From an uncultured Clostridia bacterium (GTDB taxonomy: Bacteria; Bacillota; Clostridia; Christensenellales; Aristaeellaceae), in NCBI GenBank assembly GCA_946536315.1, contig CAMNEH010000018.1, forward strand, positions 1 through 34,222: a stretch of 34,222 nucleotides of DNA, in the 5' to 3' direction. Made by a program: the position numbers and the translations under genes. The notes below the pieces were generated by a model. That model saw only the letters and a list, made by a program, of their open reading frames with translations. It was not told the DNA's origin and did no database searches. Position 1 is the first letter of the stretch; each line of letters opens with the position of its first letter. Below, one piece after another: positions 1 through 10,891 of this stretch.

Positions 1-126
1 GTTGCACTTGCCTTGGAGTCGCCTCCACCAGCCGTTAGCTGGCATCCTTGCTCTGCGATGCTCGGACTTTCCTCATCTTCTGCCTCGCGGCAGAATCCGC
101 GGCTGTCCAACCGCCTTCCCCCTTCG
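1..126 (-). ncRNA. rnpB: RNase P RNA, 5' portion (cut by window edge)
   Basis: This is the catalytic RNA of ribonuclease P, which trims the 5' leader from pre-tRNAs. Read on the minus strand, the universal P4/CR-I element GAGGAAAGTCCG lies at 74-63. It is followed by GAGC, a GCCAGCTAACGGCTGG hairpin, a GGCGAC element and an AAGTGCAAC segment near the edge, in the order expected of bacterial type A RNase P RNA. The 5' end is inferred from the promoter just upstream and is uncertain by a few bases. The 3' two thirds lie outside the window. Short ORFs reading across this stretch on the plus strand are not believable as genes. Confidence 0.9.
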
Positions 127-132
127 CCTGAT

Positions 133-161
133 ATTGTACACCATTCCCTGCGGTTCGTCAA
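133..161 (-). promoter_or_regulatory. Promoter of rnpB
   Basis: On the minus strand a -35 TTGACG (161-156) is separated by exactly 17 bases from a -10 TACAAT (138-133). This is a near-consensus housekeeping sigma-70/SigA promoter. It predicts a start near position 126, just before the conserved RNase P core, as expected for a strongly transcribed stable RNA. Confidence 0.8.
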
Positions 162-216
162 GATTGACACTTTTACAAAAAATAATTCTGAAAAAATAGC
201 CTTTTTGATTTTTTTA

Positions 217-225
217 TGGTATACT
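217..225 (+). promoter_or_regulatory. Extended -10 promoter of the envelope block
   Basis: TGG-TATACT forms an extended -10 element (TGnTATAAT-like) after an AT-rich stretch. No convincing -35 lies at the usual distance, which extended -10 promoters can tolerate. It would give a leader of roughly 30 bases before the ATG at 265 and is divergent from the rnpB promoter. A second TATACT lies at 251-256 but lacks the TGn extension. Confidence 0.45.
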
Positions 226-264
226 CCTTTTCGGTATGCCTGTTTCTGGGTATACTACGGAGGG

Positions 265-1743
265 ATGCGTCTGACGAAGAAACGGCAGAACCAGAAAACA
301 ACTGACTTTGGCAGAAGAGGTCTGATGATTGGATCAGCCGTGCTCCTTTGCGCGTGCTGCATCGTGTCGGGGTTACTGCTTGTTCGCGGAAAGGATGGTG
401 CTGCCGCGCCGTCGAAGCTTGTTTATCCTGATCAGCCTCTCCCCCAGTATCGTTTTCATTTGCGCTGGATCGAATCCGACCGCGAGGTCGCTGTCAGCGA
501 GGAGATCGCCTTCACGCTGAATGAGACCGAAGAACTGGACCGTCTCTGCCTTCGCTGCCATGCTTCCGCTTATTTGTCCCTGGCAACTTCTCCTGTGGCG
601 ACGGACGACCTTATTCAGACGGCCTATCCAGATGGATTTGATGAAGCGGCGCTCATCCTGGAGGGGTGCTGGGTCAATGACCGTTTGACAGAGGCGCATA
701 TAGATTCCGCACAGCCTGAATTACTGTGGCTGAGAGCATCCATCTCGCCTGAGGAATCTACAAATGTGCTTCTACGCTTCCGATTGAAGCTGCCCACCTG
801 CGCGTCTCTGTTTGGATATTCGACCGACGCGCTCAGGCTGGTTCAGGTATTTCCTGTACTGGCCAGACGGGATACTGACGCGTGGGACACCGGCGTTCTG
901 ATGCCATACGCATCGCCACAAGGGATGGAGGCTTCCGACGTACAGATCACGACGGATTTCCCTGATGCATGGCAAGTGATTGCCGGCGCTTGCCGCGGTA
1001 CATACGATGTTTCCGTGCTGGCAATGCCTGTCAATACCGCTTCTGTCAGCGGGCGTGCCGGACACATCCGGATCGATGCTTTCAGCGCAGGGGCAGGCCG
1101 CGCTCAACAACTGCTGATGGCAGCGCAACGCATTTTGCCGATCTATGAGCGTCATTATGGACACCTGCCCTGGGATGAGGTCAGGATTGTCGCCCTGTCC
1201 ATTCCTGACACTGGCTGTTCATTTCCTGGTCTGATTCTGATCAATGATGAACTGGCGGATTCACAGGTCGAGCATGAGCTGGCCTATTGGCTGGCCGGCC
1301 AATGGTTCGGCAGCGTCATGTATATTGATGAAGTCCAGGACGCATGGCTGGTCCACGCCGCCAGGCAATGGGCCCGTCTGAGATATATCCAGGACGCGTA
1401 TGGCGCTGAAGAGGAACAATACTATCGGCGCCTGTGGACAGCGCTCCCGATGCAGGAGAATCTTCACGCCGCCGTAACACCCGGCATGAGCGCGGATGCG
1501 TTCCCAGACCTGGCGACATACCGCAGCGTCATGGACGGTCGTGCTGCAGCGATGCTGTACGCCGTGGACCTGATGCTGGACGGTCGTTTGGACGCTTTCC
1601 TTTCACATCTTGTTGCGTATTATTCATTTCAACGTGTCGGCAGAGCAGAATTCATCTCACAGGCACAGCAACTGTATGCCATCGATTGTTCGCCGCTGCT
1701 GACCGACTGGCTGGATACCCTGATGACGACTGAATCATCGTAA
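265..1743 (+). CDS. Membrane-anchored M1-peptidase-like protein, catalytic residues lost
   Basis: A 492-residue protein with a basic N-terminus and one membrane segment (about 19-41), followed by a large extracytoplasmic part that resembles the gluzincin M1 (aminopeptidase N) family. The zinc region reads HELAY...GQWFGS around residues 337-350. H337 and E338 are present, but the second zinc histidine is Tyr341, with extra residues before QWFG. The region that normally supplies the third ligand (WLxEG) reads WLVHA at 361-365, and the GxMEN-like loop reads TGCSFPGL near 316-323. I infer a non-catalytic, scaffold-like relative. The reading frame is open far upstream, so the start is uncertain. 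I chose the ATG at 265 because it gives a normal N-in membrane anchor, but GGAGGG abuts it. The ATG at 325 has AGAGG at better spacing and would shorten the cytoplasmic tail. The next gene follows after 18 bases. Confidence 0.75.
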   Translation: MRLTKKRQNQKTTDFGRRGLMIGSAVLLCACCIVSGLLLVRGKDGAAAPSKLVYPDQPLPQYRFHLRWIESDREVAVSEEIAFTLNETEELDRLCLRCHASAYLSLATSPVATDDLIQTAYPDGFDEAALILEGCWVNDRLTEAHIDSAQPELLWLRASISPEESTNVLLRFRLKLPTCASLFGYSTDALRLVQVFPVLARRDTDAWDTGVLMPYASPQGMEASDVQITTDFPDAWQVIAGACRGTYDVSVLAMPVNTASVSGRAGHIRIDAFSAGAGRAQQLLMAAQRILPIYERHYGHLPWDEVRIVALSIPDTGCSFPGLILINDELADSQVEHELAYWLAGQWFGSVMYIDEVQDAWLVHAARQWARLRYIQDAYGAEEEQYYRRLWTALPMQENLHAAVTPGMSADAFPDLATYRSVMDGRAAAMLYAVDLMLDGRLDAFLSHLVAYYSFQRVGRAEFISQAQQLYAIDCSPLLTDWLDTLMTTESS

Positions 1744-1761
1744 AGGAGACTGATTTCCATT

Positions 1762-2874
1762 ATGAACAAGCGTGAATGCTGTGTGCTGATCCCGTCCCTT
1801 GACCCGGATGAAAAGCTGACTGCATATGTTGAGGATCTGATTGCAGCGCAGTATGGCCTGGTGTTGGTGATCGACGACGGATCGGGACCGGAATACCAGC
1901 GCATTTTTGAGGATATCGACGACAGGCCGGGCTGTAAAGTGCTGCATCACGAGGTCAACCGTGGAAAAGGCGCGGCGCTGCGCACAGGCTTTGCCTATGT
2001 TCTGGAACATACTGTGCTTTCAGGCGTCATCACGGCGGATTCGGACGGTCAGCATACCGTCAGTGACACTTTGCGGCTGACAGAACAGCTGAAACCGGAC
2101 GTGAAGGAGCTACTGCTCGGTTCACGGGATTTCTCCCGTCATTCCACGCAGGTTCCCCCACGCTCGAAGTTCGGCAACAGGACGACATCGGCCATTTTCG
2201 CCCTGCTGTATGGACGATATCTTCCGGACACGCAGACCGGTCTGCGCGGAATGAACCGCGCGATGCTGAAAGACTGTCTGGAAATTACCGGCGATCGTTT
2301 CGAGTATGAAATGAATCAGCTGATCTGGTGTTCGCGTCACCATGTGCCGATGACGGTCGTGCCCATAGAGACGATTTATCACGAAGAAAACAAAGGCACG
2401 CACTTTCATCCTCTGCGGGATTCATGGAGGATTTACAAGCTGATCCTTGGAAGCTTTCTCAAATTCACCTCGGCGTCCATCATCTGTTTTCTGGTGGACA
2501 TCATCCTGTTCAATTTGATGAAAAACATCCCCGCACTGGCGGAATTGGAGATGAACACGCCCTGGCTGCGCGCAATCAGCTGGAGTGAGGAACCGATTCT
2601 GCTGGCCACCGTCATCGCTCGTGTGATTTCCGCCTCGCTCAATTTTGTGCTGAATAAAAACCTGGTATTTGATATCAAAAACAGCCACGGCGCTGTGTGG
2701 CGGTACGTCGTGCTCTGCGTTGCCATCATGCTGATTTCCGGCGTTGCAGTCAGCGCGCTGCATGCGATGACAGGCGTGAATTCCGGTGTGATCAAGATCA
2801 TCGTTGACTTGCTGCTGTTTTTTCTCAACTACCGTATTCAGCGAAATTGGGTGTTCAAACAGGAAAACACCTGA
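1762..2874 (+). CDS. GT2 glycosyltransferase fused to a GtrA-like membrane domain
   Basis: A 370-residue two-domain protein. Residues 5-225 are a GT-A fold, family 2 transferase of the DPM1/polyprenyl-phosphate sugar synthase type, with the nucleotide-binding DDG at 38-40, DSDGQH at 93-98 (metal and sugar-nucleotide site) and a QTGLRG segment at 158-163. Residues 230-366 form a GtrA/DPMS-like domain with four predicted membrane helices and the family's NFxLNKxxVF motif near 294-303. Such proteins load a sugar from a nucleotide donor onto a lipid phosphate and may help flip it for cell-surface glycosylation. The sugar cannot be told from sequence. An AAAGGAG overlaps the preceding stop codon, so the gene is probably co-transcribed with the M1-like gene. 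Confidence 0.88.
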   Translation: MNKRECCVLIPSLDPDEKLTAYVEDLIAAQYGLVLVIDDGSGPEYQRIFEDIDDRPGCKVLHHEVNRGKGAALRTGFAYVLEHTVLSGVITADSDGQHTVSDTLRLTEQLKPDVKELLLGSRDFSRHSTQVPPRSKFGNRTTSAIFALLYGRYLPDTQTGLRGMNRAMLKDCLEITGDRFEYEMNQLIWCSRHHVPMTVVPIETIYHEENKGTHFHPLRDSWRIYKLILGSFLKFTSASIICFLVDIILFNLMKNIPALAELEMNTPWLRAISWSEEPILLATVIARVISASLNFVLNKNLVFDIKNSHGAVWRYVVLCVAIMLISGVAVSALHAMTGVNSGVIKIIVDLLLFFLNYRIQRNWVFKQENT

Positions 2875-2902
2875 TGGCGAACGCTTTAATTCTGCTCGAC
2901 CG

Positions 2903-2959
2903 GGAATGGGTAATCCCACGGCACCATTCCATACAACACTGCCGGCTGCCGTACCGGCA
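2903..2959 (+). other. Two tandem small hairpins between genes
   Basis: GGAATGG (2903-2909) pairs perfectly with CCATTCC (2924-2930), and TGCCGG (2940-2945) pairs with CCGGCA (2954-2959). Neither is followed by a T-run, so they are not classical terminators. They end two bases before the GGAGGT of the next gene and could affect its translation or mark a processing site. Confidence 0.3.
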
Positions 2960-2970
2960 TGGAGGTTAAT

Positions 2971-3975
2971 ATGAAACTGACGATCCGGATTGTCTTATGG
3001 ACGCTGTGCGCGCTCCTCGTGCTGCTGCTGCCCTTCACTATCTCCTCCCCGCAAATTCTGGAGGATGCCCGATGGGAATTCACCGATCGGCTGGACAGCG
3101 AAAGCGGAGCGTTCCGCTGGCTGAATACCGCCTATGCCGAAGACGAATGGGAAGACGCCGCCCCGGCCTATGAGCTGCCAATCGACCGTTCCCCCGGCAT
3201 GAAGCCTAATCCCGCATGCTTCACCGAGGATACATATGAAGATGAAAGCATCAGCGTACGCATGGAAACCATTGAAGAAGACGGCGTCATCTGGCGTGTT
3301 GCGTGGGTGAACATTGCGTCGCCGACGCAGCTGCGCACCGATTTCTACGCGAAGAATATTAAGAGTGATAAGGGCTATGGTTTTGTGACGAAAATGGCGC
3401 AAGAGCACAACGCCGTAGTCGCCATGAACGGCTCCGCCTTCACCCGCAGCGCCAGCCTGCATTCTTATGAGATTCGCATGGGCATCGTGCGTCAGACAAA
3501 AACCAACAAAAAATATGATATCCTGATGACGGATGAAAACGCCGACTTCCATGTGTTTGTGAAGTCAGAAGGCGCTGATTCGTTTGAAAAGGACACCGGA
3601 CACCAGATCATCAACGCTTTTATGTTCGGACCGGCGCTGGTCAAAGACGGCCAAGTGCTTGACATTCCGAAGGATTACGCAAATTACGCTTCTACATCGA
3701 AGAACCCACGCGCCGCGATCGGTCAGACTGACAGGCTGAGCTACGTGATGGTCGTGGCGGATGGGCGCGGCAATTCCGGCAGCACCGGTTGTACGCTTCA
3801 GGAGCTTGCGGATTTCATGGGACAATTGGGCTGTGAACAGGCTTATAACCTTGACGGCGGCAATTCCTCCATCCTGATTTTCAACAATGAAGTGTATAAC
3901 CATAAGGCCCAGGAAAGAGACATCAACGATTTTATTTATTTCGCGACCGCGGTGCCTGAGGAGGCCTGGCAATGA
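2971..3975 (+). CDS. Phosphodiester glycosidase (NAGPA domain) family exported protein
   Basis: A 334-residue protein with a hydrophobic N-terminal segment (about 5-26) that acts as a signal or anchor. The NAGPA-type domain spans about 95-328: AVVAMNGSAF at 148-157, GPALVKDG at 220-227, NPRAAIGQ at 245-252 and the family hallmark YNLDGGNSS at 292-300. The family includes the eukaryotic uncovering enzyme that removes GlcNAc from a mannose-6-phosphate diester, and bacterial exported proteins (YngK/NagPA type) acting on surface glycans or wall teichoic-type polymers. The true substrate is unknown. An in-frame ATG at 2959 exists, but GGAGGT at 2961-2966 sits 4 bases before the ATG at 2971, so I use that. 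Its stop overlaps the next start (ATGA). Confidence 0.87.
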   Translation: MKLTIRIVLWTLCALLVLLLPFTISSPQILEDARWEFTDRLDSESGAFRWLNTAYAEDEWEDAAPAYELPIDRSPGMKPNPACFTEDTYEDESISVRMETIEEDGVIWRVAWVNIASPTQLRTDFYAKNIKSDKGYGFVTKMAQEHNAVVAMNGSAFTRSASLHSYEIRMGIVRQTKTNKKYDILMTDENADFHVFVKSEGADSFEKDTGHQIINAFMFGPALVKDGQVLDIPKDYANYASTSKNPRAAIGQTDRLSYVMVVADGRGNSGSTGCTLQELADFMGQLGCEQAYNLDGGNSSILIFNNEVYNHKAQERDINDFIYFATAVPEEAWQ

Positions 3976-4934
3976 CCATTTTGCGTGAGGACGCTGCCAT
4001 CACCCAGGTATTCGGCGTCTCTGTATATCAGTTCGGTCTTTGGGTCGCGCTGGGCGCCTTGCTGGCCGTGGGGATTCTGGTTTTGCTTGCGCTGCACAGA
4101 AAAGCCCCCGCTTCCGAGGCCGCGCTGGAGGCGGTGCTTTGCCTTGGCCTTGGGCTGGTGATGTCCCGGCTCTTCTTTGGGGTGATGGACGCCACGCTGG
4201 GACAGGTGATGCCCCTCTGGGCGATGACACGGCTGAACACCGGCGGGTACTCACTTTATGGCGCGCTGGCCGGCGCTTGTCTCGGAATGTGGATCACCGC
4301 GCGGGTAACGCGCGGGAGTACGGCCGTTCATCTTGACGCGCTTGCGCCGGCGTTCATGATTTTCACGGCATTCGAGCGTTTCGCGGAGCAGTATATAGAG
4401 GAATTTGGCCTGAGCCGGGGTCTGGTCACATCGTTGTTTGCGCATCCCTGGATTGCGGTCGCCGATGACTATGACACCTGGTTCCTGATGACATGGCGCA
4501 TTGAATGCGCCATCGCGCTGATTCTGTTTGTGATCCTGCTGATCGACGCGTTCAGGAAGCATCGCCCCGGCCACACGTTTTTCAAGATGATGCTGCTGTT
4601 CGGCGGCACTCAAATCATCATGGAAAGTCTGCGGTATGACCAGCACATGACCATCCGAAGCTTTGTGCGCATGGAGCAGGTCCTTTCCATGGTGCTGCTC
4701 GGAACGGCGCTGATCATTCTGGCGGTTCGCAGATTGCGGTCCGCTGGCTCGAACCGCGCCCTGCCAATTGCCGCGCTCGTATCCATCCCGGTCGTTACCG
4801 GGCTGGCGGTCGCGATTGAATTTATGATCGACCGCACGGATATCAGCCGGATCCTGCTGTACATTGTGTTCATCGCGCTGGTAGCAGTGCCTGTGACGCT
4901 GGGATTCAGACTGCTGAAGGAGGACAGGGCATGA
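3972..4934 (+). CDS. Divergent prolipoprotein diacylglyceryl transferase (Lgt)-like membrane protein
   Basis: A 320-residue polytopic membrane protein with about seven to eight hydrophobic segments. Its order of motifs resembles Lgt: GGYSLYGALAG at 91-101 (Lgt GGxxxH/YGGLxG), then ERFAEQYIEE at 135-144 where Lgt has GRxGNFxNGE, and MESLRYDQ at 217-224 where Lgt has EFxRxxD. The Arg positions (R136, R221) are kept, but the signature Gly-Asn-Phe-x-Asn is gone. Lgt moves diacylglycerol from phosphatidylglycerol to the lipobox cysteine. Whether this relative does so is doubtful, and it could act on another lipid or polymer. The start overlaps the upstream stop (ATGA) with GAGGAGG 7 bases ahead, so it is made with the glycosidase. 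A standard lgt may exist elsewhere in the genome. Confidence 0.72.
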   Translation: MTILREDAAITQVFGVSVYQFGLWVALGALLAVGILVLLALHRKAPASEAALEAVLCLGLGLVMSRLFFGVMDATLGQVMPLWAMTRLNTGGYSLYGALAGACLGMWITARVTRGSTAVHLDALAPAFMIFTAFERFAEQYIEEFGLSRGLVTSLFAHPWIAVADDYDTWFLMTWRIECAIALILFVILLIDAFRKHRPGHTFFKMMLLFGGTQIIMESLRYDQHMTIRSFVRMEQVLSMVLLGTALIILAVRRLRSAGSNRALPIAALVSIPVVTGLAVAIEFMIDRTDISRILLYIVFIALVAVPVTLGFRLLKEDRA

Positions 4935-5137
4935 CGCAGGAGCAAATTGCGCGCATCAATGAGCTCGCGCGCCTTGGCAGAGAACGGCCGCTAACAGAAG
5001 CCGAGAGTGAAGAGCAGCGCGTCCTGAGGCGCCGGTATATCGACGAATTCAAAGCCAATGTGAAATCCGTTCTCGATCATACTTATATTCAGGAACCGGA
5101 CGGGAGCAAGCGCCCGCTGCGTCCAAGAAAACCATAA
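4931..5137 (+). CDS. DUF896 (YnzC/UPF0291) family small protein
   Basis: A 68-residue soluble, charged protein. The pattern I-x-RINELA, LTEAE, E-E-Q-x-x-L-R-x-x-Y and the run leading to a PDG near residues 56-58 are those of the DUF896 family (B. subtilis YnzC, YneB-region proteins), a short two-helix protein of Bacillota with no settled role. In B. subtilis some members belong to the SOS-linked yneA operon, but nothing here shows SOS control. It is translationally coupled to the Lgt-like gene (ATGA overlap) and has its own AAGGAGG 7 bases upstream. Confidence 0.88.
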   Translation: MTQEQIARINELARLGRERPLTEAESEEQRVLRRRYIDEFKANVKSVLDHTYIQEPDGSKRPLRPRKP

Positions 5138-5182
5138 TTTTTTTATCTGACCGGGATAAAATCGGAAGGGAACAACGTCAAT

Positions 5183-5698
5183 ATGAATGAGCGGGAATCC
5201 TATGAGGGGAACCGTCCGCCCATGTCCTATTACGACGGACTGTACCGGGATTACGCGACTCAGATGCTGAGGATGTGCCTGTACTATCTCGGCAACCGTG
5301 AACAGGCGGAAGACTGTGTGCAGGATGTGTTTGTACGGCTGATAACATCCGGCGTATTCATCACCCCTGGTAACGAGCAGAAGTACCTGCTGAAATCCTC
5401 CGTCAACCGATGCCGGGATATGTGGCGGAACAGCTGGCTGAAACGCACGGTGCTTGGCAGTCCTGCGCTGGAACTGATCCCTGCGCCGAACGAGATCGAC
5501 GACGCCGAGAAAAAGCTGGACCTCATGCGCTCCATCGGACATCTGAGGGTGGAATACCGCGAAGTGCTCCTGTTGTTCTACTATCAAAACTGTACCATCG
5601 AGCAGATCGCGGAGATACTGAGTATCCCGTGCGGAACGGTTTCCAGCCGCCTGACACGCGGAAGGGAAAAACTCAGACAAATGCTGGAAAGGAAGTGA
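5183..5698 (+). CDS. ECF-type RNA polymerase sigma factor
   Basis: A 171-residue sigma-70 family protein of the short extracytoplasmic-function class. Sigma region 2 lies at about 18-85 (Y-x-x-x-M-L-R, then QAEDCVQDVFVRL at 41-53, the -10 recognition helix). Sigma region 4 lies at about 113-168, with a helix-turn-helix TIEQIAEILSIPCGTVSSRLTRGREKL spread over 138-164. There is no region 1 or 3. It directs RNA polymerase to a small regulon under an extracytoplasmic or redox cue. The next gene, 8 bases downstream, is a membrane protein positioned like an anti-sigma factor. The ATG has GGAAGGG 12 bases upstream, a long spacing. The ATG at 5223 is an alternative that would keep region 2 intact. 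Confidence 0.9.
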   Translation: MNERESYEGNRPPMSYYDGLYRDYATQMLRMCLYYLGNREQAEDCVQDVFVRLITSGVFITPGNEQKYLLKSSVNRCRDMWRNSWLKRTVLGSPALELIPAPNEIDDAEKKLDLMRSIGHLRVEYREVLLLFYYQNCTIEQIAEILSIPCGTVSSRLTRGREKLRQMLERK

Positions 5699-5705
5699 AT
5701 CGCCC

Positions 5706-6620
5706 GTGACATTGGAAGAACAACTGAATCACCTGCCGGAAACCGCCAATGAACTGGCATCCGATGTCATTGCGGATGAGCACTTACTCACACGCATCCG
5801 GATGCGCGCCGCCGCGCCGCTTCAAAAACATCGGGTCACGTGGCGCGTCGCCGTGCCGGCGGTTGCGGCGGCCGCCGTTCTCCTTGTACTGCTGACAGTG
5901 CCACAGCGTGACTTCTCCGTCATGCCGCATATTGAAAACCTTTCGGCCGGCAACGCCGGGACCATTCCCCAGCCATCTACGAGGGCGGATCTGCCGGCGG
6001 GAAGTGTCACGCTCGAAAGCAGCGGCAATGTCCCCGCTTTCCGTAATATCTGGGCTGGGAACTCCGAAGCTTCGTTCCCCATGGTGCTCGATAACGGGAA
6101 ATATTATCGCCTTCTTTCCACCCCCAGGAACCTGAATGAAAAACAGCTCGGGAACGCCATCGGAACCGTCACGATGCTCACCTCTGAAATGAACGGACAG
6201 GGCCTCTGCTCCAATACGGTCCTGCAGGGAGAAAACGTTTGGCAGGTTCGCGGTATGGGCGACGCGGTCGTGGCTGCCAGAATCGACGGTTCACTGCGCG
6301 TTTTTCAGCGCGTCACCGCCGGAAACGCCGGACAGATTCCTGCGAGGCTGTCCGAATTCATGACCGCATCCAACGTCGCAGAATTAAGCCTGTCTGGGGT
6401 CGGACGCATTCAAAACGCGCAAAAAGCGCAGGAGCTCCTCAGTCTGCTGCTCAATTCTGCCAGCTATGTCAGCGGCAGCTGCGCGCGGTCGGGCCAGGTA
6501 CTCCACATTGTATATCAGAACGGTATCACGCTTCAGCTGTATGTCAGCGGCAACACCTGCTCCTCCTGCGGTACCTGGTCCTGCCCGGCGTTTTTCGATC
6601 AATTTCAACAATCCCTATGA
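5706..6620 (+). CDS. Probable membrane-anchored anti-sigma partner with C-terminal cysteine cluster
   Basis: A 304-residue protein starting at GTG, with AAAGGAAG 8 bases upstream. Residues 1-44 are cytoplasmic and charged, 46-66 form one Ala/Val/Leu-rich membrane helix, and the rest is predicted outside. That topology, and its position directly after an ECF sigma gene, suggest an anti-sigma factor, though no ZAS zinc motif (HxxxCxxC) is visible. The C-terminal part is a compact domain with Cys259 and a cluster C285-x2-C288-x4-C293, which could form disulfides or bind metal outside the cell. I do not recognise the C-terminal domain. It may instead be a lipid- or ligand-sensing partner rather than a direct sigma binder. 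Confidence 0.7.
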   Translation: MTLEEQLNHLPETANELASDVIADEHLLTRIRMRAAAPLQKHRVTWRVAVPAVAAAAVLLVLLTVPQRDFSVMPHIENLSAGNAGTIPQPSTRADLPAGSVTLESSGNVPAFRNIWAGNSEASFPMVLDNGKYYRLLSTPRNLNEKQLGNAIGTVTMLTSEMNGQGLCSNTVLQGENVWQVRGMGDAVVAARIDGSLRVFQRVTAGNAGQIPARLSEFMTASNVAELSLSGVGRIQNAQKAQELLSLLLNSASYVSGSCARSGQVLHIVYQNGITLQLYVSGNTCSSCGTWSCPAFFDQFQQSL

Positions 6621-6629
6621 GGAGAATGC

Positions 6630-7070
6630 ATGCGTAAAACGGTTTTACTATCGATCACCGGTTTCAGTAAGACGAACGGCATCCCGGACGATGTGATCCG
6701 GATGTTCACGACGGGCTTTCTGAGCGGCGACGGCGATACGTGGAAGCTGCGCTACAGCGAAACGTCCCCCGACGACGTCAAAGATAAAAACCACATCACG
6801 CTCACGCTGAGCAAGGGCACGATCACGATGACTAACAGCCAGGCCAAAGGCGCGGACATGGTTTTTGTGCGCGGCAGCCGCTATCAGGGGGTCTATCGGA
6901 CGCCGTACGGCAATCTGGATATGGCTGTTTTTCCCAGTGTGGTCAATTACCGCATCGGCCAGAATTCCGGTGAAATCAACCTGAGCTATCAGCTCGATTT
7001 CGACGGACAATACGCATCGGATCACGAGCTTCACATCATGTATGCGGATAAATCCGGCACGCGTCATTGA
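6630..7070 (+). CDS. DUF1934 (YwiB-like) beta-barrel protein
   Basis: A 146-residue protein whose features match DUF1934, a calycin-like small beta barrel common in Bacillota: an N-terminal strand (KTVLLSITG), an early TWKLRYSET segment, an ITLTLSKGTITMTN strand pair, a GxYxTPYGxLDMAVFP core (about 92-107) and a final INLSYQLDFDG strand. The function is unknown, and the fold suggests binding of a small hydrophobic ligand. A GAGGAG lies just ahead of the ATG. The 3' end overlaps the next gene by 29 bases. Confidence 0.85.
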   Translation: MRKTVLLSITGFSKTNGIPDDVIRMFTTGFLSGDGDTWKLRYSETSPDDVKDKNHITLTLSKGTITMTNSQAKGADMVFVRGSRYQGVYRTPYGNLDMAVFPSVVNYRIGQNSGEINLSYQLDFDGQYASDHELHIMYADKSGTRH

Positions 7071-7581
7071 GTCGCTCAGACAGGCTCTCTTCTTCGAATT
7101 GGGAGACGGCGTCATGCTGCGGCGCTCGAGAGATCACAGCGCGCTGTTTGTGACGGACGCGCTCCGGCGAACGGATACCCCACAGATTGTGATGGACCGC
7201 CTGATGTCCAACGGCCAGTGGCAATGCGCCTCTGTCGGCCGTCATATGCTGCTGATCGACCCTTCCCCCGCGCTTTGGCGGCGGATCATGGACATCGCGC
7301 CGCACGCGCATGATCTCCCGGATCATATCGTGCGCACGTATCCGTTTCTCGTCTCCTGCGCGCGGCGTGTCTGTCAGGTGCCCATCCCTTTCATGAATCA
7401 GCCTGTCACGGCGCTGCGGCATACGCTCATCCGCCTGGAGGAAAATGCGCTGGCGCAATTACAGGACGAGCTTCCAGAGATGGTCGCCGTTCTCCAGCGC
7501 CAGCACAAGCCGTTGCCTGAAGCGGCTGGGCACTATATTCTGTATCATCTTGAACAAATCAAGGAGTCGTCATCATGCTGA
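7042..7581 (+). CDS. Unrecognised 179-residue protein
   Basis: I cannot assign a family. The protein is soluble, Arg- and His-rich and mixed alpha/beta, with a helical N-terminus (ARVIESLRQALFF), a strand-rich middle around RHMLLIDPSPALW (69-81) and a helical C-terminus. Cys residues lie at about 63, 112, 116 and 179, with no obvious metal motif. Its frame is the only open one across 7070-7575, it sits between two clear genes in the same direction and overlaps both (29 bases upstream, 7 downstream), so it is likely real. The ATG at 7042 lacks a good ribosome site. An in-frame ATG at 7114 has GGGAG 8 bases upstream, but starting there would drop a conserved-looking helix. Confidence 0.7.
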   Translation: MRINPARVIESLRQALFFELGDGVMLRRSRDHSALFVTDALRRTDTPQIVMDRLMSNGQWQCASVGRHMLLIDPSPALWRRIMDIAPHAHDLPDHIVRTYPFLVSCARRVCQVPIPFMNQPVTALRHTLIRLEENALAQLQDELPEMVAVLQRQHKPLPEAAGHYILYHLEQIKESSSC

Positions 7582-8219
7582 TCTATTGGCACGGACATTC
7601 TGAGTTTCTGCTGGAAAGCGCCGATGGGTATCGTGTCCTCACGGACCCATTCGATGCGCATGTAGGCTATCCCATGCATACGACGTCAGCGGACGCGGTC
7701 ACAGTATCGCACGCGCATGGCGATCACAGCTATACTGACAAAGTGAACGGACATCCGATGATCCTTTCATCCGAAGGGACCACCCGGCTGTCACCCACAG
7801 TGACGGTTCAATCTGTCACCGCGCCGCACGACGGTGAAGGCGGCCAAAAACGCGGAATGACGCTGCTGACCGTCATCACCATGGACGGCCTCCGTATTGC
7901 CCACCTGGGCGACCTTGGCTGCGCGCTGAATGATACGCAGCAGGCCTTTCTTCGCGACACCGACATCCTGATGATTCCTGTAGGCGGTTTTTACACCATC
8001 GACGGGGAATCGGCCGCCGACATCGTGCAGCGGCTTTCGCCGCGCATTGTCATTCCTATGCACTTTAAGACGAAGTATAATCATGACTGGCCGATTTCGG
8101 ATGAAGAGCCCTTCTTCCGCGCGCTCGGTCTCCCCCGGCCTGAGCCGCTGCCGCTGCTTCGTGTTACCAGGGAGGATCTATCCTGCCAGCCGCAGTGCTG
8201 CATGTTTCAAATCGTTTGA
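7575..8219 (+). CDS. Metallo-beta-lactamase-fold hydrolase (YtkL/UlaG-like)
   Basis: A 214-residue MBL-fold protein of the single-domain UPF0173/UlaG-like group. The metal motif SHAHGDHSY (HxHxDH) lies at about 45-53, a later ligand HLGD at about 114-117, and PMHF at about 156-159 supplies the last histidine. Relatives hydrolyse lactones or phosphodiesters, but the group is broad and the substrate here is unknown. AAGGAG lies about 9 bases before the ATG, which overlaps the upstream stop, so the gene is likely co-translated with the unrecognised protein. A terminator follows, closing the block. Confidence 0.85.
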   Translation: MLIYWHGHSEFLLESADGYRVLTDPFDAHVGYPMHTTSADAVTVSHAHGDHSYTDKVNGHPMILSSEGTTRLSPTVTVQSVTAPHDGEGGQKRGMTLLTVITMDGLRIAHLGDLGCALNDTQQAFLRDTDILMIPVGGFYTIDGESAADIVQRLSPRIVIPMHFKTKYNHDWPISDEEPFFRALGLPRPEPLPLLRVTREDLSCQPQCCMFQIV

Positions 8220-8242
8220 CCGCATGGCTGCTTATGCTTCCG

Positions 8243-8268
8243 CTCCGGTCTATCCGCCGGAGTTTTTT
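8243..8268 (+). terminator. Rho-independent terminator after the MBL gene
   Basis: CTCCGG (8243-8248) pairs with CCGGAG (8257-8262) over an 8-base loop, followed at once by six T. It separates the envelope block from the nrdD promoter region. Confidence 0.75.
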
Positions 8269-8291
8269 AACATTCCTTTTTTGGTTTTGTA

Positions 8292-8338
8292 ATACAACAT
8301 ATAGATTTGTCACATATTTTTAATACAATATATTGACA
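8292..8338 (+). promoter_or_regulatory. Tandem NrdR boxes upstream of nrdD
   Basis: Two related 16-base sites, ATACAACATATAGATT (8292-8307) and ATACAATATATTGACA (8323-8338), fit the NrdR box (ACAC-A-TATAT-GTGT type). Their starts are 31 bases apart, close to three helical turns, as is typical for this ATP-cone repressor of ribonucleotide reductase genes. The second box overlaps the -35 TTGACA, so NrdR binding would block polymerase when dATP is high. The nrdR gene itself is not in the window. Confidence 0.82.
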
Positions 8339-8361
8339 AGCTGCGGGATATGTGTTAGTCT
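8333..8361 (+). promoter_or_regulatory. Promoter of nrdD-trxB
   Basis: TTGACA (8333-8338), a 17-base spacer and TAGTCT (8356-8361), preceded by TGTG. The -35 is perfect but the -10 is weak, and it is overlapped by the downstream NrdR box. Confidence 0.72.
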
Positions 8362-8372
8362 ATATCATGCTC

Positions 8373-8393
8373 TGGACCTGAGAGTCCGGTCCA
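8373..8393 (+). other. Hairpin in the nrdD leader
   Basis: TGGACC (8373-8378) pairs with GGTCCA (8388-8393), with a 9-base loop that itself contains a GTCC able to pair with GGAC as an alternative. It lies in the short leader between the promoter and the ribosome site (AAAGGAG at 8410-8416). There is no T-run, so it is not a terminator. Confidence 0.4.
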
Positions 8394-8422
8394 CAAAATG
8401 CAAGCTCTGAAAGGAGTCATAC

Positions 8423-10891
8423 ATGTACCAGGTGGTCAAGCGCGATGGGAAGGTCGTCGATTTTTCCATCAACAAAATTTCGTCTGCAATCACGAAGGCC
8501 TTTGACGCCATCGGAAAGCAGTACCATCCAAGCGTCATCGAATTGATTTCGCTGCGTGTTACGTCCAATTTTGACAACAAGATCAAAAACGACCGGATTA
8601 CTGTCGAAGAAATACAGGACAGCGTTGAGGAAGTGCTCTCCCAGTCCGGGTACGGCGATGTCGCGAAAGCCTATATCCTGTATCGCAAACAGCGCGAGAA
8701 GGTACGCAATATCAATTCAACCCTGCTCAATTACAAGGATCTGGTGGACAACTATCTCCAGATCCGCAATTGGCGCGTCAAGGAGAATTCGACTGTCTCA
8801 TATTCCGTCGGCGGCCTGATTCTTTCCAATTCTGGGGCCATTACCGCCAATTACTGGCTCAGCGAAGTGTATGATGAAGAGGTCACCAATGCGCATCGCA
8901 GCGCGGCCATTCATCTGCACGACCTTTCCATGCTGACCGGTTACTGCGCCGGCTGGAGCCTGAAGCAGCTGATTCAGGAGGGGTTGGGCGGCGTACCCGG
9001 CAAAATTACCTCTTCCCCTGCCAATCATCTTTCCACGCTGTGCAACCAGATGGTCAATTTCCTGGGGATCATGCAGAATGAATGGGCTGGCGCGCAGGCT
9101 TTCTCGTCCTTTGATACCTATCTTGCGCCGTTTGTCCGCGTGGACAACCTCTCGCAGAAGGAAGTCAAGCAGTGCATTCAATCCTTCATCTATGGCGTGA
9201 ATACGCCCAGCCGCTGGGGCACGCAGGCGCCGTTTTCCAACGTGACGCTGGACTGGGTGGTCCCGAATGACCTGAAGAACCTGCCGGCGATCATCGGTGG
9301 CAAAGAGATGGACTTCACCTATGGCGACTGCCAGCGCGAGATGGATATGGTCAACAAGGCCTTCATCGAGATCATGATCGAGGGCGACGCGAATGGCCGC
9401 GGATTCCAGTATCCGATCCCGACCTATTCGATTACGCGCGATTTTGACTGGTCCGAAACCGAAAACAACAAGCTGCTGTTTGAAATGACTGCCAAATATG
9501 GCACGCCATACTTTTCCAACTATATCAATTCCGACATGGAGCCCAGCGATGTACGGTCTATGTGCTGCCGTCTGCGGCTGGACCTTCGCGAGCTGCGGAA
9601 AAAATCGGGCGGCTTCTTTGGCTCCGGCGAATCGACCGGTTCTGTGGGCGTCGTGACGATCAATATGCCGCGCATCGGCTATCTGGCCGCTGACGAGAAG
9701 GATTTTTATCAGCGCCTGGACGCGCTGATGGACATTGCCGCCCGCAGCCTGAAAACCAAGAGGACCGTCATTACCAAGCTGCTGGATATGGGGCTTTATC
9801 CCTACACCAAGCGCTACCTGGGCACATTTGACAATCACTTTTCCACGATCGGCCTGGTGGGCATGAATGAGGCGTGTCTGAACGCCCGCTGGCTGAAGGC
9901 GGACCTGACAGACGCCAGGGCGCAGCGCTTTACCCGGGACGTGCTCAACCATATGCGTGAGCGTCTTTCTGATTATCAGGAGCAGTACGGCGATCTGTAC
10001 AATCTGGAGGCAACGCCGGCGGAATCGACGACCTACCGCTTCGCCAAACATGATAAGGAACAGTTCCCGGACATCATCACCGCCAACATGAATGGCACAC
10101 CCTACTACACCAACTCCTCCCATCTGCCGGTAGGCTACACGGAGGATGTGTATTCTGCGCTGGATATTCAGGATGATCTTCAGGTACTGTACACCTCCGG
10201 CACGGTGTTCCACGCCTTCCTGGGCGAAAAGCTGCCCGACTGGAAGGCAGCGGCGAATCTGGTGCGTAAGATCGCGGAAAACTACAAACTGCCATATTAC
10301 ACGCTTTCGCCGACCTATTCGGTCTGCGCGGATCATGGTTACCTGACCGGCGAGCAGTACACCTGCCCGATCTGCGGCAAGAAGACCGAGGTATACAGCC
10401 GCATTACCGGCTATTATCGTCCTGTGCAGAACTGGAATGACGGAAAGGTGCAGGAATTCAAGGACCGCCGTGTATACAATGTCGGTCGCTCAGTGCTGCG
10501 CCACACCGGTCCTCTCCAGGCGCCCGCTGTTCAAAATGACGCCGCTATCGAAGCGGCGATGGAGCCGGCGTGCTGCGCGCCTGAAACGCCGTACATCCAG
10601 CCCGATCCACCGGCGGAGTCCCCCAAACCTGTGATGCCCGAAAAGGTATTTGTCAGTCAGGCTGAAAAAATCCTGCTGTTCAAAACGCCGACTTGTCCCA
10701 ATTGTAAAGCTGCTTCTGCCCTGCTCGACCGCGCTGGCGTGCAATACCAGACGCTGAACGCCAACGAGGAGCGTGAGCTGGTGCAGCAATACGAAGTCAA
10801 GCAGGCCCCGACGCTGGTGCTGGTCGATGGGCAGCATGTGACAAAATATCGCGGTGTTTCGGACATCAAAGGTTGGCTGATGCATCGCTGA
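8423..10891 (+). CDS. nrdD: Anaerobic ribonucleoside-triphosphate reductase with C-terminal glutaredoxin-like domain
   Basis: An 822-residue class III ribonucleotide reductase that makes dNTPs from NTPs without oxygen. Domains: ATP-cone (about 3-90, VVKRDGKVVDFSINKI), catalytic ten-stranded barrel with Cys175 in GYCAGW and Cys381-Cys382 before the RLRLDLREL helix, a zinc site using the CADH and CPIC segments, and the glycyl-radical loop SRITGY with the radical Gly663. After a Pro-rich linker (about 705-745) comes a thioredoxin/glutaredoxin-type domain (about 747-822) with CPNC at 758-761 and a TLVLVDG strand. NrdD proteins are usually about 600-720 residues, so the redoxin is an added domain, presumably supplying electrons in place of formate. 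The radical activase NrdG is not encoded nearby. trxB follows after 14 bases. Confidence 0.95.
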   Translation: MYQVVKRDGKVVDFSINKISSAITKAFDAIGKQYHPSVIELISLRVTSNFDNKIKNDRITVEEIQDSVEEVLSQSGYGDVAKAYILYRKQREKVRNINSTLLNYKDLVDNYLQIRNWRVKENSTVSYSVGGLILSNSGAITANYWLSEVYDEEVTNAHRSAAIHLHDLSMLTGYCAGWSLKQLIQEGLGGVPGKITSSPANHLSTLCNQMVNFLGIMQNEWAGAQAFSSFDTYLAPFVRVDNLSQKEVKQCIQSFIYGVNTPSRWGTQAPFSNVTLDWVVPNDLKNLPAIIGGKEMDFTYGDCQREMDMVNKAFIEIMIEGDANGRGFQYPIPTYSITRDFDWSETENNKLLFEMTAKYGTPYFSNYINSDMEPSDVRSMCCRLRLDLRELRKKSGGFFGSGESTGSVGVVTINMPRIGYLAADEKDFYQRLDALMDIAARSLKTKRTVITKLLDMGLYPYTKRYLGTFDNHFSTIGLVGMNEACLNARWLKADLTDARAQRFTRDVLNHMRERLSDYQEQYGDLYNLEATPAESTTYRFAKHDKEQFPDIITANMNGTPYYTNSSHLPVGYTEDVYSALDIQDDLQVLYTSGTVFHAFLGEKLPDWKAAANLVRKIAENYKLPYYTLSPTYSVCADHGYLTGEQYTCPICGKKTEVYSRITGYYRPVQNWNDGKVQEFKDRRVYNVGRSVLRHTGPLQAPAVQNDAAIEAAMEPACCAPETPYIQPDPPAESPKPVMPEKVFVSQAEKILLFKTPTCPNCKAASALLDRAGVQYQTLNANEERELVQQYEVKQAPTLVLVDGQHVTKYRGVSDIKGWLMHR

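Follow-up and report, generated by a model that had tools for sequence, protein, structure and literature searches.

Several described systems border on the locus reported here. Multi-component transmembrane glycosylation systems are known in which a GT-C enzyme consumes a polyprenyl-linked sugar, as described in PMC8035078, and in B. subtilis the protein UshA (YqjL) has been proposed to free undecaprenyl phosphate (Und-P) from Und-P-sugar, an enzymatic activity presented as putative in PMC11898649. The uncovering enzyme of the NAGPA family hydrolyses UDP-GlcNAc besides GlcNAc-P-mannose according to PMC12024695, and Lgt is treated in PMC13251419 as a lipoprotein-lipidating enzyme and drug target. 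This study concerns three consecutive genes in a 34,222-nucleotide stretch of DNA (hereafter the window) from an uncultured Clostridia bacterium of the family Aristaeellaceae. The window opens contig 18 (CAMNEH010000018.1) of assembly GCA_946536315.1, a genome of 2.87 Mb in 182 contigs that is estimated to be 83% complete. The second and third of these genes, encoding a NAGPA-family protein and an Lgt-like protein (LGTL), recur as a pair across the family, and it is this pair that is characterized below.

Open reading frame (ORF) calling placed the three genes exactly where a first-pass annotation of the window had drawn them, and its family assignments were borne out by Pfam, with every match over the curated cut-off. 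The overlap that it had noted between the last two genes consists of a shared ATGA at 3972-3975.

1762-2874, plus strand: GT2-GtrA fusion, 370 amino acids; GtrA_DPMS_TM (PF04138) 45 bits, Glycos_transf_2 (PF00535) 44.9 bits
2959-3975, plus strand: NAGPA-family phosphodiester glycosidase, predicted to be exported or membrane-anchored, 338 amino acids; PF09992 107 bits
3972-4934, plus strand: Lgt-like integral membrane protein (LGTL), 320 amino acids; LGT (PF01790) 60.1 bits against a cut-off of 24.9

ORF starts were set at the first ATG, GTG or TTG, leaving N-termini uncertain, and the first residue was written as M even at contig edges. From its domains, the GT2-GtrA fusion is predicted to be a polyprenyl-phosphate-sugar synthase with a GtrA-type membrane domain.

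Pairing and co-divergence of NAGPA and LGTL

Twelve genomes of the family, including the window's own and picked for several copies or for nearness to the window's genus rather than at random, were searched for LGT-type matches; a match was counted as paired if it lay downstream of a PF09992 gene on the same strand and within 1.25 kb. In total, 63 matches were found, 49 of them paired. The 14 unpaired matches comprised the canonical lgt of each genome (12 genes, the strongest match in every case), one more strong Lgt (G212:C18) and a single LGTL from G079. Because 49 of the 50 non-canonical LGTL genes follow a NAGPA gene, the NAGPA-LGTL pair is the core unit. Each genome carries two to six such pairs alongside canonical lgt, with an intra-pair gap of 20 bases or less in 36 of the 49. 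Within the window's genome, PF01790 recognized canonical lgt (contig 114) as well as four weaker copies, on contigs 18, 31, 32 and 39; a fifth non-canonical copy, on contig 20, was detected by an LGTL profile. All five non-canonical copies adjoin a PF09992 gene. The pairing is one-sided, with 49 of the 123 NAGPA genes of the 12 genomes belonging to LGTL pairs. The window's genome itself encodes 14 PF09992 genes, nine without an LGTL partner; phosphodiester glycosidases are thus numerous in this lineage.

The two partners have also diverged together. NAGPA and LGTL distances correlate over the 49 pairs (r 0.77), a value reached by none of 5000 within-genome shuffles (maximum 0.38), and the correlation persists when the 12 operon copies, those accompanied by GT2-GtrA, are left out (r 0.75, shuffle maximum 0.59). 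For 36 of the 49 pairs, the NAGPA and LGTL sets agree on the nearest relative. A tree built from 69 NAGPAs by maximum likelihood places all 49 LGTL-paired sequences in one group of 56 rows with support 100/98; the rows outside this group represent part of the unpaired NAGPAs (those of contigs 5, 6, 26 and 105 were left out). The other seven rows of that group are three NAGPAs unpaired by the rule, two of them in the same cluster as pair L278, and four from two doubled-NAGPA operons without LGTL. Taken together, pairing and co-divergence suggest that this family of bacteria from gut and rumen carries a previously undescribed surface machine made of two parts, and it is very probable that NAGPA and LGTL form a functional unit.

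A scan of public genomes with LGTL as the query extended these results to 64 LGTL loci, of which 63 have NAGPA immediately before LGTL (53 of these with no more than 10 bases between the two) and 55 have GT2-GtrA nearby; the single locus without NAGPA begins at a contig end. A small DUF896 gene is near LGTL in 61 loci and an M1-peptidase-like gene in 37. The co-occurrence in related genomes on which the first-pass annotation had staked its grouping is therefore found, and since the order recurs in relatives, the gene run is not a matter of chance. Its picture of three genes as one run needs narrowing, however: the three do co-occur, but the conserved unit is the NAGPA-LGTL pair, with GT2-GtrA joined to one copy per genome. 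The public contigs on which the closest relatives lie carry the labels uncultured Clostridia, Clostridiales, Eubacteriales, Christensenella(ceae) or Bacillota, and many are ruminant-derived according to their labels.

Additionally, 66 GT2-GtrA genes (ranks 2 to 67 in a 100-genome family sample) were examined, a sample that partly overlaps the LGTL-based one, some contigs being identical. Of the 46 highest-ranked, 39 have NAGPA within 3 kb, 33 have LGTL within 5.5 kb, 37 have DUF896 and 24 have the M1-like gene; in four of the 13 without LGTL (L081, L100, L103, L104) the contig stops less than 1.4 kb downstream. At two loci (L095:5890-7771 and L099:3723-5523) a doubled NAGPA lies beside GT2-GtrA with no LGTL, the partner having been lost or never gained.

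Beyond the family, in a 151-genome sample of the order and a 398-genome sample of the phylum, the matches listed that reach the C-terminal extension of LGTL are confined to the window's family, and the LGT matches listed from outside it end at or before position 275, like canonical Lgt; with up to five candidates scored per genome, exceptions may be missed. No description of the NAGPA-LGTL pair was found among the open-licence papers searched.

Fold and active-centre residues

The structure model of LGTL (pLDDT 93.0) has a single clear match, E. coli Lgt (5azb), with a Foldseek E of 4.2e-6 and a VIA-align Z of 17.1 (root-mean-square deviation 3.6, 238 residues aligned); the VIA-align rows ranked below 5azb, none above Z 8.8, were set aside as helical arrangements of a common kind. 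The NCBIfam lgt equivalog model TIGR00544 gives the window protein 36.7 bits against a cut-off of 118.9, and because it stays under that cut-off the protein is termed Lgt-like rather than Lgt. The model adds a C-terminal helix pair (263-288 and 293-319) bearing an EFxIDR motif, in which E283 is E in 42 of 49 LGTLs and F284 is F in all 49; D287 is kept in 12 of 12 operon copies and 26 of 37 others. Going by the topology of Lgt, this motif would lie at the outer face.

E. coli Lgt requires Y26, H103, R143, N146, G154 and R239, as summarized in PMC13251419, and among the substitutions reported by Mao et al., R239A/E/H/K/Q and R143A/E/K were non-functional, with R239Q among the non-complementing variants (PMC4728403). 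A profile alignment equates R143 with R136 of the window protein, N146 with E139, R239 with Q214, E243 with E218, R246 with R221 and H103 with Y96. These columns were compared between the 49 LGTLs and 34 canonical Lgt proteins; of the latter, L048 alone belongs to the window's family and the others were drawn from different families. The arginine equivalent to R143 is retained in 45 of 49 LGTLs, as are E243 (E in 45) and R246 (R in 47), whereas E occupies the N146 position in 46 of 49 (N in 34 of 34 canonical sequences) and Q occupies the R239 position in 40 of 49 (R in 34 of 34). Loss of H103 was considered as a further diagnostic and rejected, the canonical set itself being split between H (24/34) and Y (10/34); Y at this position has been noted in Firmicutes (PMC13251419). 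The first-pass annotation had described LGTL as a relative of a phospholipid-using transferase. This kinship stands by PF01790 membership and fold, but diacylglyceryl transfer of the Lgt kind is unlikely because most members have substitutions at positions that E. coli Lgt requires, and LGTL is probably not a prolipoprotein diacylglyceryl transferase.

For the NAGPA partner, the structure model (pLDDT 87.7) matched a bacterial DUF2233 protein (3ohg, E 1.4e-13) and vertebrate NAGPA (entries beginning 6pk, E about 1e-13) in Foldseek; judged by its family, the window protein would cleave sugar-1-phosphodiesters. A hydrophobic segment precedes the domain in the paired NAGPAs, and one of the 49 has a lipobox according to a simple motif search. 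Dedicated lipidation of NAGPA by LGTL was rejected as a candidate on this last count.

Candidate reactions of the pair

From the observed families, fold, pairing, co-divergence and residue swaps, a mechanism can be proposed in which NAGPA and LGTL would be subunits of a physical complex, or partner enzymes, in one extracytoplasmic envelope system that has been duplicated and diversified to two to six copies per genome. LGTL keeps the Lgt fold and the phospholipid-binding arginine around an active centre re-wired by E in place of N146 and Q in place of R239, and its added helices would bring the conserved EFxIDR to the outer face in the predicted topology. NAGPA would cut the sugar-C1-O-phosphate bond of a glycosyl-phosphate lipid; most likely, LGTL would bind the lipid phosphate and either present it to NAGPA or complete the reaction that NAGPA initiates. 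At the window copy, GT2-GtrA would synthesize and flip a polyprenyl-phosphate-sugar. Because that product has a bond of the type cleaved by NAGPA-family enzymes, the carrier lipid would be set free by the pair, either through hydrolysis of the sugar or through its transfer to an outer-face acceptor. This choice of substrate is favoured by the acceptance of UDP-GlcNAc by the uncovering enzyme (PMC12024695) and by UshA as a putative precedent for freeing the carrier from Und-P-sugar (PMC11898649). As a whole, this proposal of a two-component extracytoplasmic enzyme for glycosyl-phosphate lipids, supplied here with a polyprenyl-phosphate-sugar, is put forward tentatively, at somewhat less than an even chance, and slightly less assurance attaches to glycosyl-phosphate lipid as the substrate.

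A bolder form of the proposal holds that the pair uses polyprenyl-phosphate-sugars at the outer face independently of any GT-C enzyme, with an Lgt-fold protein re-tooled from diacylglycerol transfer to the handling of glycosyl-phosphate lipids, with the glycosidase beside it acting as a transglycosylase and with each copy serving its own lipid or exported-protein acceptor; this form is doubtful. No GT-C was named among 20 window proteins scanned, which are part of the window's genes on a contig that starts just upstream; for GT-C-independent use this result is no more than suggestive, since PMT_2 genes lie elsewhere in all 12 genomes. A YfhO-type enzyme as the GT-C partner was tried and set aside, with matches over the cut-off in just one of the 12 genomes. 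At one place in each of the 12 genomes, a PMT_2 GT-C domain sits in an unusually long open frame of 1381-1500 codons (G000:C84:5370-5807 in the window's genome). A phmmer comparison of GT2-GtrA with PDB sequences gave no match.

A number of observations weigh against the proposed glycosyl-phosphate-lipid enzyme. One NAGPA-LGTL pair per genome accompanies GT2-GtrA, and therefore the other copies need another source of substrate. Seven of the 64 LGTL loci run M1-like, NAGPA, LGTL and DUF896 with GT2-GtrA missing from the stretch examined, and two further loci without it are cut by a contig end, making nine in total. Of the 20 GT2-GtrA genes ranked lower, six have NAGPA nearby and none has LGTL, and the operons L086, L095 and L099 retain GT2-GtrA and NAGPA without LGTL. 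The R239 position departs from Q in nine of 49 LGTLs and is R in two of these. Genes of the PMT_2 type occur in all 12 genomes searched and could use the polyprenyl-phosphate-sugar instead, so a GT-C acting in trans is possible. The stereochemistry also fits poorly, an inverting GT2 polyprenyl-phosphate synthase usually yielding a beta-linkage. The characterized NAGPA takes off an alpha-linked sugar (PMC12024695). Moreover, divergent Lgt proteins without R143 and R239 are known in other phyla, their reaction being left undecided in PMC13251419.

Four other explanations were weighed. Retention of the Lgt fold, of the arginine that meets the phosphate of phosphatidylglycerol and of the E. coli hydrogen-bond network formed by E243 and R246, together with a lipid-linked sugar available from GT2-GtrA, would suit a glycan or glycolipid diacylglyceryl transferase, in which LGTL moves diacylglycerol from phosphatidylglycerol to a surface-glycan hydroxyl and NAGPA trims a capping sugar-phosphate. 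This would be a more specific form of the first-pass suggestion that the three genes could build and trim a lipid-anchored surface glycopolymer. It is unlikely, although it is the least improbable of the four: the required R239 and N146 have become Q and E in most members, and none of the 10 proteins scanned at 265-8216 was named as a polymerase. A second, low-activity or specialized prolipoprotein transferase with incidental neighbours would accord with PF01790 membership and fold, and a second Lgt of Mycobacterium smegmatis carrying Y26H and N146C is presumed in PMC13251419 to have low activity. Each of the 12 genomes has a canonical lgt of its own, however, and the residue swaps, the near-obligate pairing and co-divergence with NAGPA and the single lipobox among the paired NAGPAs make this reading very improbable. 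The loss of two required residues in most members and the tight pairing would also be expected if LGTL were catalytically dead, a mere membrane anchor or lipid-sensing scaffold for NAGPA. Against this, R136, E139, E218, R221 and D223 are strongly retained and a new conserved EF motif has been gained, which suggests selection on chemistry; a dead scaffold is accordingly given a low probability.

The same low probability is assigned to a sortase-like pair for surface attachment or modification, whose clients would be the neighbouring M1-like, PGA_cap/DUF6273, RCC1-repeat or leucine-rich repeat (LRR) proteins. By eye, 18 of the 37 non-operon pairs adjoin a same-strand gene with a signal-peptide-like N-terminus, a figure given without a computed background rate, and the M1-like gene lies near 37 of the 64 operon loci. 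The neighbour families vary as such clients might. A gene of one related group, PGA_cap and/or DUF6273, stands beside eight of the 37 non-operon pairs (six were scanned, five with PGA_cap and one with DUF6273 only), RCC1-type genes beside three (one scanned) and LRR genes beside two (both scanned), these counts being lower bounds since genes overlapped by longer spurious ORFs, such as that upstream of L260, were omitted; a Big_2 gene lies 1.4 kb away from one non-operon pair. On the other hand, about half of the pairs have no signal-peptide-like neighbour, and no common sorting motif was seen at the neighbour C-termini inspected by eye.

Flanking genes and comparison with described systems

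Two further genes, absent from the first-pass annotation, recur in the same run among relatives:

about 265-1743, plus strand: M1-peptidase-like protein with an N-terminal hydrophobic segment; start codon uncertain; Pfam M1 13.1 bits, under the cut-off
4931-5137, plus strand: DUF896 small protein; PF05979 64.8 bits

The DUF896 gene overlaps LGTL by ATGA, in the same manner as NAGPA and LGTL overlap. The M1-like homolog L069 reaches 56.8 bits with Pfam M1, and HExxHxW is intact in 16 of 26 aligned homologs; it is lost in the window protein, where HELAYW replaces HExxH, in three genus relatives and in six others. By its sequence, the M1-like protein may be a peptidase that is decaying or re-purposed inside an otherwise conserved operon. 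Downstream of the operon, at 5183-7070, come genes for an extracytoplasmic function (ECF) sigma factor, a putative anti-sigma protein and DUF1934, in an order shared by the closest relatives L065 (same contig as L130), L125 and L126; this group is a possible local regulator. Scans of 1-8500 returned seven promoter-like sites (4.9 expected) and 19 terminator-like sites (7.7 expected), which were not used as evidence.

Two observations were made at other loci. Some relatives have, between GT2-GtrA and DUF896, another LGT-like gene of very divergent sequence (L050:5303-6199, L146:2626-3345, L147:1234-1953, L168:2998-3798 and L176:2992-3753), that of L050 being barely recognized by Pfam (E 0.044). 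Exported fusions of DUF6273-like and PGA_cap domains lie directly upstream of NAGPA-LGTL pairs at L046:1826-3664, L252:5747-7738 and L268:1869-3935.

The pair brings known part families into a previously under-described combination, to which the reaction proposed above may apply. Matches to PF01790 are named after the Lgt reaction, and for the multi-copy LGTL subfamily this name is probably wrong because most members have exchanged the required residues and nearly all come with an enzyme partner. With LGTL, a second chemistry of the Lgt fold can be put to the test, and the pair offers a candidate substrate for bacterial NAGPA enzymes and could explain some of the envelope biology of little-studied gut and rumen Clostridia.

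Compared with E. coli Lgt (5azb), LGTL shares the fold, PF01790 membership and the equivalents of R143, E243 and R246, and differs in its sub-cut-off equivalog score, in the mostly exchanged N146 and R239, in its extra C-terminal helices, in its NAGPA partner and in coexisting with a canonical lgt; relative to the divergent Lgt proteins of other phyla, it mostly retains R143. The window NAGPA has the fold and the NLDGG core motif of other NAGPA/DUF2233 phosphodiester glycosidases (PF09992; 3ohg, the uncovering enzyme) but sits in an LGTL-linked group. With the CsbB-GtcA-YfhO type, as portrayed in PMC8035078, the window has in common a GT-A polyprenyl-phosphate-sugar synthase and a GtrA-type flippase domain, both within 1762-2874, whereas in the window it is NAGPA and LGTL that come after GT2-GtrA. 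The proposed chemistry, Und-P out of Und-P-sugar, would be shared with UshA, which in the account of PMC11898649 differs in resembling alpha-beta hydrolases, in being thought to act at the cytoplasmic face and in being controlled by SigM.

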